DNA of 64,000 bases from Isoetes taiwanensis (Eukaryota; Streptophyta; Lycopodiopsida; Isoetales; Isoetaceae). Position numbers and translations under genes: made by a program. Below the pieces are notes generated by a model that saw only the letters and a list, made by a program, of their open reading frames with translations, searched no databases and was not told where the DNA came from. Numbering within the stretch: position 1 is the stretch's first letter; every line of letters starts with the position of its first letter. The DNA lies in NCBI GenBank assembly GCA_021234155.1, contig JAJEKV010000524.1:1-64000 (forward strand), in the 5' to 3' direction. Of the stretch, positions 14,925 to 51,621 are shown one piece after another.

Positions 14925-16796
14925 ATCTAGCCCATCTTGCCTCCACAATCATTAACATGCATCACTTTCGCCTTCTCCGCCCCGCATCGCTAATAATAGC
15001 CCTGTTAATCACTTATTAAGTCTGTCGCCATCATCGCTAAAATGGCCCCCTGTTCCTTGCTCTACACTTAACGCAAATGAAAATACTTAAATTAGCAGCA
15101 TGCCAGGTTACCTTTTTTTTTAGCATCTCGTGTGTCACGTTGTTCTAACATCTAAAAAGCAACTTATATAAAGGCATCTCTTTGGGTCAAGCTAGTCTAT
15201 CCACCGTCACAAGACATTATACGAAAAAATCTACAAATACACCTCCATAACAATTTACAATCTTATGTAACATCATACGATTTTCACTATTTTGAAACCT
15301 TATCGTTATATGTTATATCGAGTTGAAATCTTTTTGTAAAATTTTTCCCTTTATACCTTATAAGCCAAGGTATATATATACATGTACATAGAACATAGAA
15401 CGACTTAGCAGTATAGCAGTCTCTCTTTTTGACCATTTGATATTTTTGAGTCAAGATCAGTTGGTGAAGATATCGTCGTTCCCTTGTTTCATCTGTCTGA
15501 ATTCTAAACGTCTGAAGATGGTTAACATTTGGCGACCATTTAGGAAATAACTATATATCTCAGAAGCAAAGAATACATTAAAGAAAAAAAAAATAATAAT
15601 AATAATAGTTTAAAAATATTGTGTGCCCTAAACGATGCAAGAATCTAAAGAACATTCTTCAATATGGCCTAAAAAATCCAGATAATATTCCCAAACAACC
15701 ATCAAACAAGGGTTTACCCCTTTGGGCAACCAAAAACAACCACCAACAACCAACCACCTACCTCAATGAATACGAAACTACAAAACAAAGAATATGCAAA
15801 CACACTCTCGGGACCACCGAGGGCAAACCCTTTGTGCGTAGCACCTTCTTTTATTTCATCCTTAAGTGAGTCTAATATGCAAATCTAGTTTGTACAAATC
15901 TTTGTTTGGTGCTTCTTCCTCTTAGATATTATTCATTATTAGAAACAATGGCCAGTATTTAGTATTTGCAAGATCAATTATTTTTAAATTTCACCTTATT
16001 ACACCCCTCCCTCCCTTTTTTGCTTTTGATGTGGCATCATCTTCACCAGTGGGTCAATCAAATCTTCACGGTCCAAATTTAAGCATGTGTTGAAAACCTA
16101 TAAAGGTTATTTCATATCATTGCCACAATATGGTAGCTTGAAAAATCTAAGGGGCTTTAAGGTACCCAAGGCTACTTGCAATATATGATAAATGGAATTT
16201 AATTGAATTGAGCTTTTACTGTCAGCCTATAGAATGCTTGTATCTGATGACACTAATAAGACCTAGGAACACACTAGCACTTAAATGCCTTAGAACACAA
16301 AAGGTTCCGCTTAAGCCATGTGCTCTTAATTGGCTTTTCCACCAATCCTTACGAAGACTAGATGGCCTATGGAATCCAACTGTGAAGATTAGATAAATAG
16401 CCTATATTTTTTGTAGTTTTGAGTTAAACTACAACACAAAATTCAATCAAATGTCAAAGAATTCATTCTTGTTCAATGTAGCCATCTTCTTGGTTCTTCA
16501 AAGAAAAAATAGAGCATAAATGTCAACATTAAAGTTCTGCCCATTGCATAGTGTTGTCAAGAAAGCCAATGATGTATGTCTATGGCATAGGTAGACATGC
16601 AAGAGAACACTTATATAAATCTATTCAAAAGTCACAATTACAAAACAAGTAGCGTGGACAAAAATTCTCATCTTACCAAATCTTGCAAATAGCTAAACCT
16701 TGCCATCTTCAACAACATGTATGTTCTTCTCAATTGTTGGTGCTTCCTTGCTTCCTCACTACTATTGAAGTCCTAAAATTAACAATACAACAGATA
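14925..16796. other. Spacer without a recognised gene
   Basis: AT-rich DNA. At 16028-16080 (minus strand) there is a stretch with GATGATGCCACAT and a preceding block resembling the 5' subterminal part of the Helitron-like elements at 20.4 and 22.95 kb, so it may be a fragment of the same family. No coding family was found. Confidence 0.45.
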
Positions 16797-18025
16797 CTTT
16801 TTTTTTTTTTTTTTTTAATTGAAGGCTGAAGTATATTTAGATCCGTGTAATAAAAGTACATTGAGAGCTAATAAAAGCTTTTTGAAAATAACCTTTAGGA
16901 TAGGGTAGGTTAGGGACCACGAATAAAAAACCGAACTATCCAAATACAAAATAGAAGCGAGGGAAAAATCTTGGCGGAGTTCAAAAAGTATAGTAAGCGG
17001 TATCTTAGCAAGGTGATCGAGTATTCACAGAAAATTTTTCTTCTTAGGCTCCCTCTTAGAATGATCCTTTCTTCCCATCCCCTTATTGGCTACAATGAAT
17101 AAGCAATAAGGGCATTTGCAGAGATGAGCCTTTCCTGGATTAAATCTGTCCCTCTTGTCCTTTGCAGTGCACAAGATATATCTTTTCTCATCAAAGTAGG
17201 ATGTGCAGGCGCAATTGCAGTGACACTCTTCTCCATGTTCGTTGGGAACTTCGACTCCAAACTGAGTGAGCCATAATGCATTCGTTTGAACATGATTAAA
17301 GTGTTACCTGCAAGCAACAGAACACCGACATTAAAAAATAGAATTGAGCCTTAATTACGATTCCCATAAACTTCCAAAACCCAATTTATGTCATATTGGG
17401 CTTGTTTAATTATGGCATTGGGCGGATGATTTCCTCCTTGAAAATCAAGGTGTTTCTTCCCTTCCACATTCTCCATGGGAGAATGTACCTCCTCCATTCA
17501 ATTGGATTATGAGGGAAAAAGAGCTCAATAGCATGCATTTGGGGTAGGCCAGGAATATTTAGCTCGGTTTACGCTAACTCCAAAATCCATTTACGCCCAT
17601 AAGCAATTTTTAAGCAGGATGTTCTTCATCTTCACGATCCTGCAAACATCTAACACATATGTCGTAATTAGACATGTTGAGCCTCCATCTCTTTCTATTA
17701 GTAGCAAGGGGCCTATGCGAGTTGCCACATAAATGCCTTGATTTTTGGATGAATTGGACTTTTCCACATAAAGGTCAAGTTCCTGTAAACTCTGTCAGGG
17801 TCAATATTCCATTTCATATGAATGGATATTTCTTGGTGCTTGTTTAGATACCTGTAGGCCAAGTTCACTCTGTAACGGAAAAACCATTAATATGCCAAAG
17901 TATATTAGTATCTCCCATAGCCAACCTCGAGAGATATACTATTGAAGAGCCGTTTGGAGTCATCTCCTAAGTCGTAAAAGTGGATTCTTGGTAATCAAAA
18001 TCATGAGTAATGTCCCTAATGTAGA
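16797..18025 (-). mobile_element. LINE, 3' half (zf-RVT and poly-A tail)
   Basis: Minus strand. From 18025 downward the frame reads IYIRDITHDF, then a zf-RVT region (FMWKSPIHPKIKAFMWQLA at about 17770, NMSNYDICVRC at about 17680) and the typical tail IEWRRYILPWRMWKGRN (about 17480). It ends at a run of about 20 T on the plus strand (16797-16816), which is the poly-A tail of a minus-strand LINE. Several stops and frameshifts are present. This part lacks the RT core, which lies on the other side of the Helitron pair (23045-25656). At the junction, WTNRGI before the insertion reads directly into IYIRDI, a common LINE sequence type, so both halves are one element. Confidence 0.75.
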
Positions 18026-20480
18026 CTAGTAAGGGTGCCCGTTCTTTGGGCATAAGTTGAGAGCCCTGTAAATTTTTGAGCTGCACACTAACAATGTAAA
18101 TTTTGTAGTGCTACTACTATTGTAGTATCGTTCTAGCAAAATGTAACATCGTCTTACATTGTAATATTATGTCCAACTTTTTTCTACCCATGCCATTCCA
18201 TGCCATTGTGGACTCATGTTTGGTAATAGCGCATGTCTAAATGCTCAAAAGTCACACTTGACAATATCATGCATTTGAACTACATTCTAGGTAGTTTGTT
18301 GTCTATAAAGCAACATACCTACCATAAGTTGCACCAAGTAACACAGTTATAAAATCCACTACGAAATGTTTGCCTTATCCCAATATTTTGCAACTAGCAT
18401 TCTACTCTAAAACGTGTACTAGAAATGCAGGGCACATGTAGGTGGAATACAATAGTACAAATAAAATCATCATCATCATCATGAATAATAAATTAATTGG
18501 GCATTTATCCTTTGTTTCCGAAGGTATATCGTTATGCCGGGCATTAGTTGTACATGTAGGTGGAATACAATAATACAAATAAAATCATGTCTTGAGTTGA
18601 GAATTGAAGGGTAGTTTGCATACAAAGGATAAGAGAACAAATCTTGCTTAAGTCGGAACGTCAATGAAAAGTAGGAACACCAAGTTCAAAATTACACTTG
18701 CAATATTACCATTGGGCGAGGGTAGTTGATGTTTCCATAACCATAATTGTGGGAGAGAACATTGTATATCATACATATCTATATCAGATTGACTAAACCA
18801 TGTGTTAACTTATTATCCAACTTATCCAAGAAACCTAAGAATGTTAGTTACAACTCTACAGGTGCATTTAACAACAACATAGATGTAACACTAATAGTTT
18901 AGCTCTTATATATTTGCAATATAGACATTTTAAGTACCATTGTAAAGCGGTTGGCATCCACGTAAAACTATGATTATTAGTAGACCGAGTTGTGTTTGAT
19001 GCTGATATAAGATATAGTTTTTATTAGCCAGATTGCTTGCTTGTCCACTATTAGCTAGTACCACGAGTAAATTATGAGGATCTAAAAAATAGGACATGCA
19101 CTTCTTCAAAGCCAAGTGGCATAATACAAATTTAGATCCTAATGGTGTTGTTCTTTCTTCAGCCGCAACCTTTGCTCGACTCCATACTTGTTCGCAAACC
19201 AACAAAAGTACACAATAAATTGAGTACAGATATAGAATGATAAAGGCAAACATAAATAAGCTATCTTTAAAAGATAGCCTAACTTCGAAAATCGGACACA
19301 ACATATAGCATTACCGTTATCTTCTTGTGCCACCCCAATTGTAGCATCCCTTGAGTATCGTCACACAATCTATAACACAACTTTGTAAAATATTTCTAGA
19401 TTCTGAGCTCTAATCCTTTGTCACTCGCGGGTTACAAATGGAAATCGTATGTTGTATGTTCCTCAAAGACATTCTTTGCCCTTATGAGCGATTCGTTCCA
19501 TATAAATGTCTCGAGAATAGCATGCAGGAAAAAGCAAAGAGAAGAAAAAATCATTCCCTTAATCTCTAATCCATGCATGTCAAAACAAAGAAGAGAGAAA
19601 AAATATGGCTTACTTTGTATAGAGAAAGAGCGTTTTTAAGAATAAAATCTTGGATCCCTTAATATAGAAATCCTTGAAGTAATATCTGACCCAGGCCTCT
19701 TATAGTTCTCAACGGATGTAGATACAAAGCTTCTATGATGTAACCAAAGGCTTTAAATGTATCCATAAGCATATTTCTCTATCAATGAATACAATCCTTA
19801 AAAGACCCAGGCCTATCTAGTTCTAGTCACGACAAAAGCTTTCTCAAAGTATTTTTCCGACAGCGAGGGATGCTTAACAAAGGATTCACGGATTAAGGGA
19901 ATAGACACGAATGGGAGTTTGGCGCTGCTTTACCCTCAAATAAATCGGTTCTATTACGATTTCCTCCTTATCTATTTGCTACAATTGATCTCGATAGGAA
20001 GCGCTCCATATGCCGCCGTTAGCCATGGCGGTCGTTACATAAACAAAACTCCAGTAATCCTCCGGCATCAATATCTCGGACTAAAACCAAGAGGAGTCTT
20101 CTAATCCATTTTATTGTAGCAACGCCATAAAAGCTGAAAAAAGGAACAAATATGATGATGGAATGGATGGGAAGCGAACTTGATAGTTGCCATGGCCGCA
20201 ACGATATCCCTAAACCGGAGGAAGCGAGAAGCTCTAACCACGAGAAACCACAAGCGGAAGTGCTAAAAACCTAAGAAGATTGTGGAATGTATTTGCACCG
20301 ATTTTTCTAACCTAGCGGGGTTTCCACATGGCGTGCATGTGGATAGCGCGCCATGGCTATGAACCCTAAAAACTCAAAACTTTGTGGACGTGGCATCATC
20401 ATCGCCATTGGTTTGGTGAATGCGGTAGTTAAAATTAGGGCCTGGGTCCAACACTTACACAATAACATTATAATATAAGA
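18026..20480 (-). mobile_element. Helitron-like element A (non-autonomous, 2455 bp)
   Basis: Read on the minus strand, the element starts 5'-TCTTATATTATAATG at 20480 and ends with a short GCCC..GGGC hairpin, ten bases and CTAG-3' at 18026. The base after the end is T (18025). These are the Helitron hallmarks: 5' TC, 3' hairpin plus CTRR, insertion between A and T, no target-site duplication. It encodes no RepHel protein, so it is non-autonomous. Internally, an ATG in good context at 20193 begins MATIKFASHPF, and an open stretch near 19340-19250 (ATIGVAQEDNGNAICC) could be captured gene sequence. I do not recognise it. Near the 3' end a 39-bp block is duplicated (18434 and 18552). Confidence 0.72.
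18434..18590. repeat. Two copies of a 39-bp block, 118 bp apart
   Basis: ACATGTAGGTGGAATACAAT followed by (A/G)TACAAATAAAATCAT occurs at 18434-18472 and 18552-18590. A short CAT-type microsatellite follows the first copy. Both lie in the 3' part of Helitron-like element A. Confidence 0.9.
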
Positions 20481-20588
20481 CTAGTAATGGTGCCCGGTAC
20501 ATGGAGATTTGGAGATGATCAGAGATAAGAAAAGAGCCAGACACAAACCTAAATATATTATCAATTTTGTAGCTTCTTCCTTCTAAAT

Positions 20589-20733
20589 ACATAATGGCAA
20601 ACAATGCCCAGCATTGTTGGACTAAAGTTACAAATATATCAATTGATGAACCTATCGTGGTTATACATAATGGCAAACAAAGCCCAGCATTGTTGGGCTA
20701 AAGTTACAAATATATCAATTCATGAACCCATCG
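20589..20733. repeat. Two-copy tandem repeat, 76 bp period
   Basis: A block starting ACATAATGGCAAACAA, with GCCCAGCATTGTTGG(A/G)CTAAAG inside, occurs at 20589-20657 and 20665-20733. It lies near the 3' terminus of Helitron-like element B, where duplicated subterminal blocks are common in this class. Confidence 0.9.
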
Positions 20734-21225
20734 ATATGTTATCTATGTCATATAAAATACCTTAATAAATGTCAAATGAACTTAATTGAGTGGTTTATGA
20801 TTTGCCTTATATCAAAATGGCATTCAATATAGAATACACTTGTAAAGTGAAGAATAAAAAACGTGTATACAATAAATGTTGAAAGGGCATAGTTGCTTGG
20901 CATGTGCAACAGCTTCTTACACTTTCTATTCTGCTTCGCTTCACTTCCTATTCTAGAAATGTTAATCAAATTGTGGAAAAATGTACAAATTCATTGTACA
21001 GTGACAATAAAAAAGAACATGTTTCCTATGACATTATTCCATATCTTTGTAATTTAAGGTGCATAATCTGTAAACCCTTTCATCCAATATATCTTCATGC
21101 ATAGACTCTATTTATTTTGCATGCCTAGCATATAAATTTGTCCAGTATATACTATAATTTTTACTCTATTAAACTATGCAGCTCTTGACTTATTTGCGAG
21201 AAATATTTGCAGGAGATTTGCTCAA

Positions 21226-22790
21226 TCAAGCTTCTTTGCAATAGAAGGGAATGTTCCGCACACCATCTGCAAAATTAACATATAAGAATAAAGATTTAAC
21301 ATCAACAATGATAATGACCAACAAAGTAAATTTTATAAAACATGAACGAATATGAAGTAATATTTTGCGAAGTAATTACGTTATTAAGGATGCTCTTTCA
21401 GCTGTCTGAACGAAACCAAAGAAAAAAAAAACAACAAAGAATAAAACCCACCTTAATCTTGGCTCATCTCATCATGTAAGTAATTATCTCTTTTGAATAA
21501 TGTATTAGCAGATTAGGAATGAAATGTATGTCATGCAATGTAATGTGCAATGTTGCTGTCAAATGAGAAGTTACAAAGTGAACTGGTTACCTTTGTCTTA
21601 GTAAATGCGATGGACTGGACTTGAGGAACTCGGATACCTTTCCTTTTGTTGCATACACGAAAAGCACAGGACTATTCATAACTGCATGCATAAGTGCATG
21701 AGGAAAACAACACAAAAAATTTAAAATTTTCCACAAAAAGTACCTTGCTTCCACATAAGGCTTCAGATCATTGTATAATGTGAGGAAATTGTTCAGATTA
21801 TCTCACTCTGTTTGAGCATTCTGTTTACACATCAGGGCTTCTGGAATATTACCAACGGTAACCAAATTTTAGAATAAGGGCGTGATGGAAGATACATGGC
21901 TCCTCTGCTTGCAGCTTCGATCCACAGGATTTGAAGCGCCCTTCTTCCTAGCAGTAAGGCATTGACTATCAGACCGAAAATCTTAGCAGCACCAACACTG
22001 CACCAAAACCAGCATGCACGCACTACAAATACCTTAGCTTGCAACCCTTAAGCAAGTTGGTGTTGAAATGCACTTCCAACTCCAAAACCCAACAAACGAT
22101 TCTGCAAAAGCATCAATCAGTGAGAGATGGCCGGGCATGTTGTGTAATTTGATATTTACTGGAAATACCACAAAGAGAATAACTTCGATCTATTGATGAT
22201 TTTTCACTTTTAATAATGCCTAGAATGTTGCATACATGAAAAGCACACAACATTGAAATCTGTCAAGTTCTATGGCATCTCTGTTTGTGCTATTATATCC
22301 ATAACTACAGCAGCAGAACTAATTTACACTGTATCCTGACCATTTTGGGATATGAATAAGTGCCCTAAATATCTATACAGACCTACAAATTGGCAAGAAC
22401 AAAATGTATTTCGTGCATGGTCTTGGAAGCATGAAAGCACGATAAATCTGAGCAAAAACCTGATTATTTTCGTTCCAACATCTAAGGACTCTAATTAATC
22501 AAAGAAGGATCGATAGGGTGTACTAAATTCAGAGCAAATAAGAGGGGATAAAACCTTGGAGAGTTGGTTGAAGGCTCCATACTGGTTCACCGAGAAAAGC
22601 CATAAATCATATAGTTTTGGAACAAAACAACTACCAAGCAGCAAAATCCTAAGCTAAAAAGGAAAAATCGTGGACCACTCAAATCGATGCAGCCAAAATC
22701 GTCTGCCTAATTACTGGTTGCTGATCTCCAGCTACCTGCGACCACTGCGGATCGGTAGGCTCCATCATTACGCAGAATCGACCAAACATC
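21226..22790 (-). pseudogene. Captured gene fragment inside Helitron B (four candidate exons)
   Basis: Four minus-strand segments have splice signals. Exon 1 (22790-22736) starts ATG, reads MFGRFCVMMEPTDPQWSA and ends at a GTAGCT donor. A second exon (21840-21744), after an AG at 21841-21842, holds LNNFLTLYNDLKPYVEA and ends at GTACTT. The next (21681-21591) reads AFRVCNKRKGIRVPQVQS and ends at GTAACC. The last (21266-21226) reads MVCGTFPSIAKKLD then TGA. The last two junctions keep the frame exactly. In-frame stops after NAQTE and after SYE show decay. A gap of about 900 bp separates exon 1 from the second exon, so exons may be missing. I do not recognise the parent gene. Same-orientation exons inside the Helitron boundaries fit gene capture. 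Confidence 0.5.
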
Positions 22791-23044
22791 TTGGGACTTG
22801 GGAGGAAGCGGGATTTTTAGGAGGAGCCGCCCGAGGTATTTAGGTTAAAAAGGAATAAAAGTGTCGAAAATAGCATTATAGGGGCTTTTTTTTAAAAAGG
22901 GAGGCCAAGAAGTCGGATTATTTACTCTTCAATCCCACTAAAGAATCTAAATGTGGCATCATCTCTTCCATTGATTTCATCAAATCTGGGCAGCCCAAAT
23001 TAGGGCTGGGTCCAACACTTACACAATAACATTATAATATAAGA

Positions 23045-25656
23045 TAATTCCTCTATTAGTCCAACTTGCTTGGTTAACTTAGGAAATTGGTGGCTAGACA
23101 CATATTAGGGTTAGTCCAAAATAAGAGAGGGACTCGAGAAAATAGGCTGATCTGTGAAAGCCCTTCTTTCCATGTGTACATACCTTTGATCTTAAGCCAT
23201 GCTCTAATCCATTTCTTGATAAATCGAGGCATGGTGGTAGGAACGATAAACTCAAAATAGATACTATGAGGCTGACTGCATTTTGAGGTTTCTCCAGCAA
23301 AGGGTGACATTTTCAATATAATGGGAAATGAGAACACTCCGCAGGGTGATTCTTTGGTTGTTGCAAGCCACGAAAAAATATTTTGGTGACCAAAGCGGTT
23401 GCACCTTCTCAATATTGATGACTCCTAGACCTCCCTTCCTTTTATGTTTGCAACATTCTTCCATAGAAATAGGGATCCAGCACCTCCTACTAGATCCACC
23501 TGCAATGAACCTTCCAATGATACTTTGCATTTTAGCTAAAACCTTCTTAGGGGCCATAATAATGGAGGATTGGTAGACACGAGAAGAGGAAATGGCCGAG
23601 TTTGCGAATGGCTCTCCCATTTTAGATAAAAATTTAGAGTTGAGGGAGTCAACTACGTAGGAATTTGTCAATCGGAGGTCTTCCCAAAGGTCAGAAGCAT
23701 TAATTCTGATAGCATAAGGAATGCCTAGAATTTTCGTTTTAGTATTAGGGGAGAGATACATACATTCCAAGCTTGCAGCTGCATGCTCACCCTCTTCTTG
23801 ATGCCTTGAGATCAGCTTGGTCTTGTTGGGATTAATTTTGCACCCGAGCATTTACCAAAGTCCTCCAAGATAGCTTGAGTATTCTGTATGGATTGATCCT
23901 CCAAATGAAGGAATAAGAAGGTATCATCTGCAAAGTGGACATTAAGAATCTCGTTTGTCTCCTGGGAGGGAAGACTGAGACCCTTAATTAAGTGGAGGTC
24001 TTTTGCCCTCTTGAAATTGCTATTTAATCCTTCCATCACAATTAAGAATAAGAAAGGTGCAAGAGGGCAGCCTTGCTTGACCCCCTTTTAATATCAAAGA
24101 AAGGACTACATTCACCATTTATAAGAACAACAGATCTAGAATTCTTAAGAATAGCTTGGAAGACATAGATTACATTATCAGAGAATCCAAGTTTCTTACA
24201 GCACCAACAAAGAAAAGCCCAACTTACCGTGTCAAAGGCCTTTGTGATGTCCAATTTAAGGAGGCCAATTGACTGGTTAGAATCTTTGGCCCAGGAGATA
24301 CCTAGAGATGCAGCAACAACATTATCTAGAATATACCTTCCCCTAAGATAGGCACTTTGAGTATTGCTGATGACCTCCTCCAGGATGGGCTTGAGTCTAG
24401 CAGCAATGGTACCTGTAATTAACTTATAAACCACATTGGTCGGAGAGATGGGTCTATAGTCGAGAAGGTGATTGGGAGCTTAATCTTCGGGATGAGGGCA
24501 ATCAAACTTGTATTGATTCTGCAGTCCAATTGCTTGGTTGTTAAAAACTCATTGGCCAGGGAGACAATATCCATACCAAGAATTTCCCATGATTTCTTGA
24601 AGTACTCAGCTGGGAGACCATCAGGGCCTGGAGTCTTACCATTCTCCATCTCCTGGAGAACCTTGAGCATTTCATCATAGGTAAAAGGCCTAGATAATCT
24701 ATCATTCATCTGCTCAGTCACTTTCTGCTGGATATGCACAAAATTCTCAATATCTTCCCCACTAATATTTTCCTCGGTTCCCATGATCCTGGAGAAGTGA
24801 TCTTTGGCAGCACACTTTAGCTGGGTGTCATTATCAATATTGTTGCCTTCCCAGAGAATACTGTAGATATGATTTCTCTTCACTCTGCCTTTAGCCTTGA
24901 TGAAGAAATACTTTGAGTTACTCCTTTCATCTTCCTTGAGCTCCTTTACCTTTGCCTTGATCTTCCAGCCTCTGGCTATTCTAATTTCTTCTCTTTCTAT
25001 CTGGATTTTGATGTCATCTTTTTGTTGACCCTGAGCCAAGTTTAACTGGGATCTTAGGTCCTGAAGATGGGCAGTATTACTTCTATGGACTTCTTTTCCC
25101 CAAACTTTGAGCCAATTCTTGATCCTTTTGGAAACCTTTACCCACCAATCCATCCAACCCCTGTTACCAGTAGGCTTTTCCTCTTGAGAGATGTTCTGTT
25201 GAAGGTTAGGCAAAAAAACATCCTGCTCAAGAAGATTAGTATTCAGCTTAAAATAAGAATTTCTTTTCCTCTGAACACTGTTACCACATATGCTAATGAG
25301 TTAGAGGAAATGGTCAGATAGAGTGTAATTGGTGAGATTAGTGACTCTAGAGCTATTACTCCATAAGGTTTCACTAAGATAAAATCTGTCATGGAGACAA
25401 CAAACTGGCTGATCTCTGTGGTCATTCCAACTAAAAGAGTTGGGAGTGACCCTGGCCAAAGAGAGATGGTGAGAAGAGAGGAGAGAATTCCAGCTTGAGA
25501 ATTCATTGTCAGTCAGGGGCCTGAAATTAGTACTTCTCATATAACTATATTAAAATCCCCAGCTAAAATGTATTCATCATAGGAAATTCTTTCTAAACTC
25601 CTATTAATGACATCCCACAGGCTAACTCTATCAGGGAAAAGAGAAAAGATATATCT
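23045..25656 (-). mobile_element. LINE, 5' half (endonuclease, RT)
   Basis: Minus strand, same element as 16797-18025. From 25656 downward: the end of an AP-endonuclease domain (YILAGDFNIVI at about 25560, then FSWNDHRDQPVCCLHDR and a terminal SDHF), a linker, and RT. RT blocks seen are EMENGKTPGPDGLPAEYFK, SAYLRGRYILDNV, LLKLDITKAFDTVSWAFL and HFADDTFLFL (the FADD active site at about 23930), then thumb and connection sequence (LSKMGEP..., GGLGVINIEK). The element is truncated inside the endonuclease at the 5' side. At least four frame breaks occur in this half. Domain order and motifs are those of plant L1-clade LINEs. Confidence 0.85.
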
Positions 25657-28547: not shown

Positions 28548-28630
28548 TAGATGATGTAGCACAATTTTAGTCCTCCAAACTGGGGAGGGATCCAACTCCA
28601 ACACTTATGCTATATTTTTATAACATAAGA
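28548..28630 (-). mobile_element. Helitron-like 5' end (element C)
   Basis: Minus strand: TCTTATGTTATAAAAATATA starts at 28630 and is preceded by A (28631). It is followed by a block related to the subterminal GTGTTGG..C sequence of elements A and B and a GATGTAGCAC-like block. I could not find a matching hairpin plus CTAG end between here and 25.7 kb, so the element is truncated or its end has decayed. Confidence 0.5.
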
Positions 28631-51324: not shown

Positions 51325-51352
51325 CTAGTTATTGTGCCCGACATTGCCGAGC
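51325..51352 (-). mobile_element. Helitron-like 3' end (element D)
   Basis: Minus strand: a GCTCG..CGGGC hairpin, CACAATAA and CTAG ending at 51325, followed by T (51324). It matches the 3' ends of elements A and B (CGGGCAC..T(T/A)ACTAG). The element's 5' end was not found in the 51.4-60 kb region. The tandem repeats and GC-rich ORF just upstream may be its contents. Confidence 0.5.
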
Positions 51353-51621
51353 TTTAGCAAATGCAGATTGTAGAAGGAAGTATGCAGTTTTGCATTTGTA
51401 GGCTCTAGGGCAGTGTCCTTAGTAGTGAATTGAAATTTGTAGTGTTTAAGCCAGTTGGTGTTCATATTTGTAGAGTTCAAGTTAATGTTTTGATGAATAT
51501 GAGTGAAATGGATCGACTTAAGGGTTTTAGTATAATAAAAGAAGTAGAACATTGTATTGGAGATTATGTTGCTAGTTTGGTAATTAATTATGTCATTTTA
51601 TTTTAATGAACTTGTTCTCAA

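Follow-up and report, generated by a model that had tools for sequence, protein, structure and literature searches.

The window analysed here is a stretch of 64,000 nucleotides of Isoetes taiwanensis DNA (contig JAJEKV010000524.1, positions 1 to 64,000). On the minus strand, between 16.8 and 25.7 kb, direct reading reveals a single LINE that is split at one A/T dinucleotide by two elements placed end to end, termed B and A (a slash denotes a boundary or a point of insertion throughout). Followed 5′ to 3′ on that strand, the order is LINE ...GGAATTA / TCTTATATTATAATG... B ...CACCATTACTAG / TCTTATATTATAATG... A ...CACCCTTACTAG / TCTACATTAGGG... LINE, and the bases bordering the insert are A at 23045 and T at 18025. 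B comprises 2,564 bases (20481–23044, minus strand) and A comprises 2,455 bases (18026–20480, minus strand). Each begins with TC and ends with CTAG, and they meet in the CTAG/TCTT junction at 20477–20484. The initial annotation had described two abutting Helitrons that split one LINE across an intact CTAG/TC junction, with outer flanks A (23045) and T (18025), and direct reading bears this out to the base.

The upstream part of the LINE occupies 23045–25656 on the minus strand and ends with ...GGAATTA at 23045; its outer limit of 25656 is taken from the initial annotation and is provisional. It contains a reverse transcriptase domain (RVT_1) that scores above the Pfam cut-off at 24042–24479 and at 23812–24087, and the region 24500–23045, or part of it, has top identities of 85.5–90.8% to 15 other copies in the genome. 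Pfam gave no match to an endonuclease domain in two frames of 25243–25549, which cover part of the 5′ side of the LINE. The downstream part (16798–18025, minus strand) begins with TCTACATTAGGG and continues to a poly-A tract at 16816–16798. Within it the match to zf-RVT at 17713–17886 is weak (18.4 bits, below the cut-off of 27.5), and 17610–17774 matches the ZZ zinc-finger model instead, at its cut-off (21.4 bits). Of the features originally named for this LINE (endonuclease-reverse transcriptase, zf-RVT and poly-A), the reverse transcriptase and the poly-A stand, while zf-RVT is found only below its cut-off. Reverse transcriptase with a poly-A tail is the combination of an L1-type LINE. No target-site duplication was seen for the LINE as a common exact word of at least 8 bases beside both ends, the 5′ end being poorly defined.

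A and B resemble each other only in their first ∼93 bases (82% identity) and their last 16. The 42-base repeat at 20439–20480 and 23003–23044 is 98% identical. The initial annotation took the common 5′ end with different interiors to favour two related elements; the likeness is limited to these terminal sequences. Neither element contains an open frame of more than 126 aa (this being the longest in A), and Pfam gave no match in the two frames of A that were tested. B is a mosaic; among the best 40 of 130 candidates, positions 846–1266 of the query match C124, C812 and C974, and positions 1265–1801 match C541, C933, C667 and others. A sharp breakpoint between two source families lies inside B at 21635/21636 of the window.

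The 3′ end of A can be folded into a hairpin with a 5-bp stem (TGCCC-AAAGAAC-GGGCA, 18036–18052, minus strand; −4.5 kcal/mol). This is weak, and 2/200 shuffles fold as well over the last 30 bases and 24/200 over the last 50. The 3′ end of L201, a relative of A, folds at −9.5 kcal/mol. No fold was obtained in the last 30 or 50 bases of B. It reads TGTACCGGGCACC at the position where two of its relatives (L045 and L046) carry a full hairpin (TGCCCAGCAACGCTGGGCA); L042 and L043 have altered forms of this hairpin, and L045, the one of the four B-relatives that was folded, gives −9.5 kcal/mol. The hairpin with which Helitrons end according to the initial annotation is thus present in A, weakly, and absent from B. 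By its ends, its target and its relatives, B may be described as a decayed Helitron.

Other traces of Helitrons are present on the minus strand of the window. At about 1231–1235 there is a Helitron-type 5′ terminus (TCTTCTTTATATTATAAAATTATTGGG), 91% identical over 47 bases to the terminus of L078, and at 51325–51356 a Helitron-type 3′ terminus (GGGCACAATAACTAG/T), 87.5% identical over 32 bases to L060. A weak and decayed Helitron-like 5′ terminus lies near 28630 (69% over 107 bases). Beyond the LINE poly-A, at a distance of about 0.7 kb, a fragment at 16022–16079 is like the 5′ subterminal part of these Helitrons (76% over 58 bases), without a recognisable TC end.

Empty LINE sites and element boundaries

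The LINE is found uninterrupted elsewhere in the 1.66-Gb genome. With the joined flanks as query, 38 of the 40 scored LINE places (the best 40 of 208 candidates) are continuous across the 23045/18025 join, with 78–86% identity, and the remaining two are the LINE halves of the window itself. A pattern for the empty site was found at 19 places in the genome with no more than two mismatches. Base-by-base alignment of two empty copies shows neither gain nor loss of sequence at the point of insertion. The reading frame crosses the join in four of the six empty copies tried (L047, L190, L194 and L195; for example WTDRGIIYIRDI), and that of L194 meets a stop codon further on. No such frame was obtained for L048 and L198, the other two of the six. 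Both the proposal that removal of 18026–23044 would join the LINE in frame and the existence of uninterrupted LINE copies are upheld by these results. A and B are inserted at A/T without target-site duplication, with 5′ TC and 3′ CTRR termini at or a few bases from which their copies stop, as seen below (general features of Helitrons are given in PMC13286980 and PMC4683698).

Each boundary search scored the best 40 candidates. For the 5′ end of B, with a query of 100 LINE bases followed by 150 of B, 38 of the 42 rows start no more than six bases from the TC; the remaining four comprise the window, the LINE copy on C1018 and two minor rows. For the 5′ end of A, 39 of 47 rows start at positions 142–153 of the query, where the boundary lies at 150/151, and there are seven minor rows and the window. 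The search with the 3′ end of A gave 41 rows. Twelve of these cover the end of A and stop at query 151–159 (boundary 150/151), nine are LINE copies that start at query 148–159, i.e. at or near 18025, and 19 stop earlier within A (query 94–129). The window is the sole row covering both sides of this boundary among the best 40 candidates. The limits first drawn for the elements (23044, 20481 and 18026) are therefore sound, since in the best 40 candidates of each search copies stop at or a few bases from 23044, 20480 and 18026. One match (C1018:41667488) crosses 23044 into the LINE, because that LINE copy carries a different Helitron of its own at the same point. Four of the five relatives of B that were read (L042, L043, L045 and L046) reach CTAG/T, by way of a stretch that is absent from B; L042 and L043 are probably duplicates of each other, as they share their right flank. 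A solo relative of A (L201:107-5853), full-length but rearranged, is bounded by A/TC and CTAG/T.

A LINE copy on C1018 (L040) carries a third Helitron, X, of ∼3.3 kb at exactly the same A/T as the B-A pair. A pattern in which CTAG is joined to the LINE flank, with up to two mismatches, gave seven matches, comprising the B-A and X places exactly and five without CTAG; more diverged LINE copies would escape this pattern. A 15-row tree of the window with 14 of the 15 other LINE copies (L199 was too short) pairs L040 with L198 at a support of 100/100. The site in L198 is empty, so that X and the B-A pair represent independent arrivals. A common ancestry of the two was rejected on this ground and because X resembles A and B in its end sequences only. 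A second hit at this LINE site is unexpected (about 0.01–0.07, by arithmetic on assumed copy numbers and for one extra case). A LINE hotspot acting through a target motif is unsupported. Scored with a matrix derived from 73 right flanks, the LINE site is only at the 79th percentile of A/T sites, ranking 92/540 in L047 and 160/672 in L048.

CTAG/TC junctions and targets across the genome

The exact junction CTAG/TCTTATATTATAATG occurs 151 times in the genome (85 + 66) and its reversed control not once; base composition would predict ∼12 (P about 2e-111). There are 3,314 exact copies of the TCTTATATTATAATG terminus (1646 + 1668; control 22), and those preceded by CTAG amount to 151/3,314, or 4.6%. 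Forty junctions were read, from 100 places listed of the 151 counted. No pair among the 40 is alike on both sides (at least 140 bases with at least 80% identity), so the junctions read do not descend from a single composite. In 27/40 junctions a perfect stem of at least 6 bp lies just before the CTAG of the upstream member, and in 13/40 there is none; such stems are found in 18/400 random stretches of the window. Several of the 13 stemless ends look like variants with an imperfect stem, and no conclusion was reached on hairpin loss as a general trait of upstream members.

Some loci contain more than one junction. L205 has two that are 2.4 kb apart, and arrays of three Helitrons, of which this is an example, seem to exist. 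L206 (C1032:13930500-13934400) is a homotypic head-to-tail array with a period of 3,592 bases, the middle element of which matches the upstream tail at 100% and the downstream head at 95% identity. This array is perhaps a product of rolling-circle replication or of tandem duplication, and tandem amplification of a single element therefore occurs in this genome. L204:1-9446 (C1018) contains a RepHel gene (1,765 codons in the stretch, with Helitron_like_N and PIF1), after which comes a similar hairpin-CTAG end. Downstream there is a second element whose last 39 bases are the same, and then a third 5′ end; it looks as if the CTAG of L204 is followed by two further head-to-tail elements. L204 is a candidate source of the transposition machinery. 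In the genome as a whole, Helitron_like_N scores above its cut-off in 150/150 matches scored (the best 150 of 1,813 candidates). In L057, L071 and L086 the 5′ terminus of the downstream member runs for 18 bases before an element in the opposite orientation (CTAGAAA or CTAGTAA) starts, which suggests a second hit on these termini.

Among the flanks read elsewhere in the genome, A precedes TC in 33/33 left flanks, none of them preceded by CTAG, so that the rule is shown for solo copies only, and T follows CTAG in 79/80 right flanks. Helitron 5′ words are matched by 7/80 right flanks, compared with 22/11,995 of the A/T sites in the window, the right-flank sample being non-random (low-numbered contigs, with one known junction left out). 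In L172 the right flank forms a junction with a terminus of the TCCTATATT type. Some of the other matches (e.g. L149) are insertions at A/T sites within a Helitron 5′ terminus; resident 5′ termini therefore do get hit by later elements. Such insertions look over-represented in the sample read.

Scored as a target, the Helitron 5′ terminus lies at the 99.7th percentile of the matrix, from which flank position 16 was omitted for this purpose because the listing pattern had barred G there. The positional information in the matrix is real (0/1000 shuffles reach it). Base composition alone places the terminus at the 99.0 percentile, among A+T-matched sites it lies at 95.5, and 17/200 position-shuffled matrices score it as high. 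For real sites the matrix is hardly better than composition, with median percentiles of 90.8 and 90.2 respectively. Most of the likeness between the preferred target and the Helitron 5′ terminus is thus explained by AT-richness.

Origin of the B-A pair and relation to known systems

We infer that two different non-autonomous Helitrons inserted successively at the same A/T of the LINE copy, in two events rather than one, with A first and B second; we place the probability of this reading at about three in four. A would have entered the LINE to generate A/TC...CTAG/T, in which the host A and the leading T of A would constitute a new A/T at the 5′ boundary of A. Entry of B into this new site would then give A/[B]/[A]/T, in which the two elements touch directly without intervening host sequence, and B would later have lost its 3′ hairpin. 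By the A/T flank rule insertion at A/TC is canonical, whereas insertion after the CTAG of B would use G/T. This rule and the unlike interiors favour one of the two options in the initial annotation, a second insertion exactly at the A/T junction of the first. The empty LINE sites, the element ends observed in other copies, the hits of later elements on resident 5′ termini, and the excess and diversity of CTAG/TC junctions also speak for it.

Arrival of A as the second element, at G/T after the CTAG of B, would result in the same final structure, and the passages of PMC2267711 that deal with the maize pair leave the order of its two members open. It requires a G/T target where all the left flanks read elsewhere have A, which makes it very unlikely, although the CTAG-preceded ends are the very cases in dispute and lie outside the sample of 33 flanks. 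The divergence of A from the relatives read is similar to that of B, and therefore age does not settle the order of insertion. Since B has no hairpin, the main rival to A-then-B insertion is transfer of both elements in a single step. B would have been adjacent to A at a donor locus and, lacking a hairpin, would have been read through its own CTAG to the terminator of A, whereupon B-A would have inserted once as a composite; the outcome would look identical. The end of B has no fold where L045 and L046 keep the full hairpin, and deletion of the hairpin from Helraiser makes read-through to terminators further downstream more frequent (PMC4778049). On the other hand no second copy of the hairpin-less 3′ end of B was present in the candidates scored (40/40), the B-A junction did not recur in the best 40 of 1,063 candidates, and a donor locus was not found in these searches, although a blank in a search of this kind is no proof of absence. 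We consider a single-step origin unlikely.

The other option in the initial annotation was a head-to-tail rolling-circle product, which would make the pair a concatemer of one element. The homotypic array L206 exists in this genome and a CTAG/TC junction is found in Helitron circles (PMC4778049), but A and B are alike only at their ends (the first ∼93 bases and the last 16) and therefore do not form a concatemer. This origin was rejected, unless the interiors were replaced later, and is now highly improbable. An artefact of assembly that joined unrelated Helitrons is scarcely credible; a repeat-rich setting could mislead an assembler, but an empty LINE site is recovered exactly from the two outer junctions, and the junction type is present 151 times in the assembly.

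Successive insertion may be part of a more general behaviour. Helitrons of this group could favour the 5′ termini of resident Helitrons, the AT-richness of which would fit the target they prefer. Hits at A/TC would recreate the target so that arrays would grow in the 5′ direction, and decay of an inner hairpin, as in B, could then turn the array into a larger composite element. We put this forward tentatively and consider it less likely than not. If true, it would provide a stepwise route to new long Helitrons, and growth on the 5′ side with decay of the inner terminator would offer an uncomplicated way for tandem pairs to become composite elements and to capture sequence. The order of arrival, left open in what the 2008 maize paper says of its pair, could be settled by comparison of haplotypes over the 151 or more junctions, 40 of which have been read with all pairings different.

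Head-to-tail junctions and tandem arrays of Helitrons have been described in plants and bats (PMC5876387). In the r1 region of maize, Helitrons No.1 and No.2 are adjacent and head-to-tail with a CTAG/TC junction and different contents, and both orders of insertion have been proposed (PMC2267711). As in the B-A pair, the CTAG of one touches the TC of the next and the interiors differ. The B-A pair differs in having as its host a LINE with many empty copies, in its sequences and in the absence of a hairpin from B; PCR data from inbred lines were available for the maize pair, while the B-A pair is known here from one assembly. Perfect head-to-tail junctions occur in Myotis lucifugus (Pritham and Feschotte, as cited in PMC2267711). 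There too CTAG meets TC without an intervening host base; those junctions were suggested to represent tandem repeats, whereas A and B are different elements. Helraiser shares with A and B the TC and CTAG ends, the A/T target within AT-rich surroundings that are strongest on the 3′ side, and the use of the hairpin as a terminator (PMC4778049). It is a reconstructed autonomous bat element, and its circles join the two ends of one element, unlike the B-A junction (PMC4778049). The B-A pair is a further example of an arrangement known from maize and bats, to which it adds the number of such junctions in one genome, the repeated use of a single LINE dinucleotide and the missing inner terminator of B.
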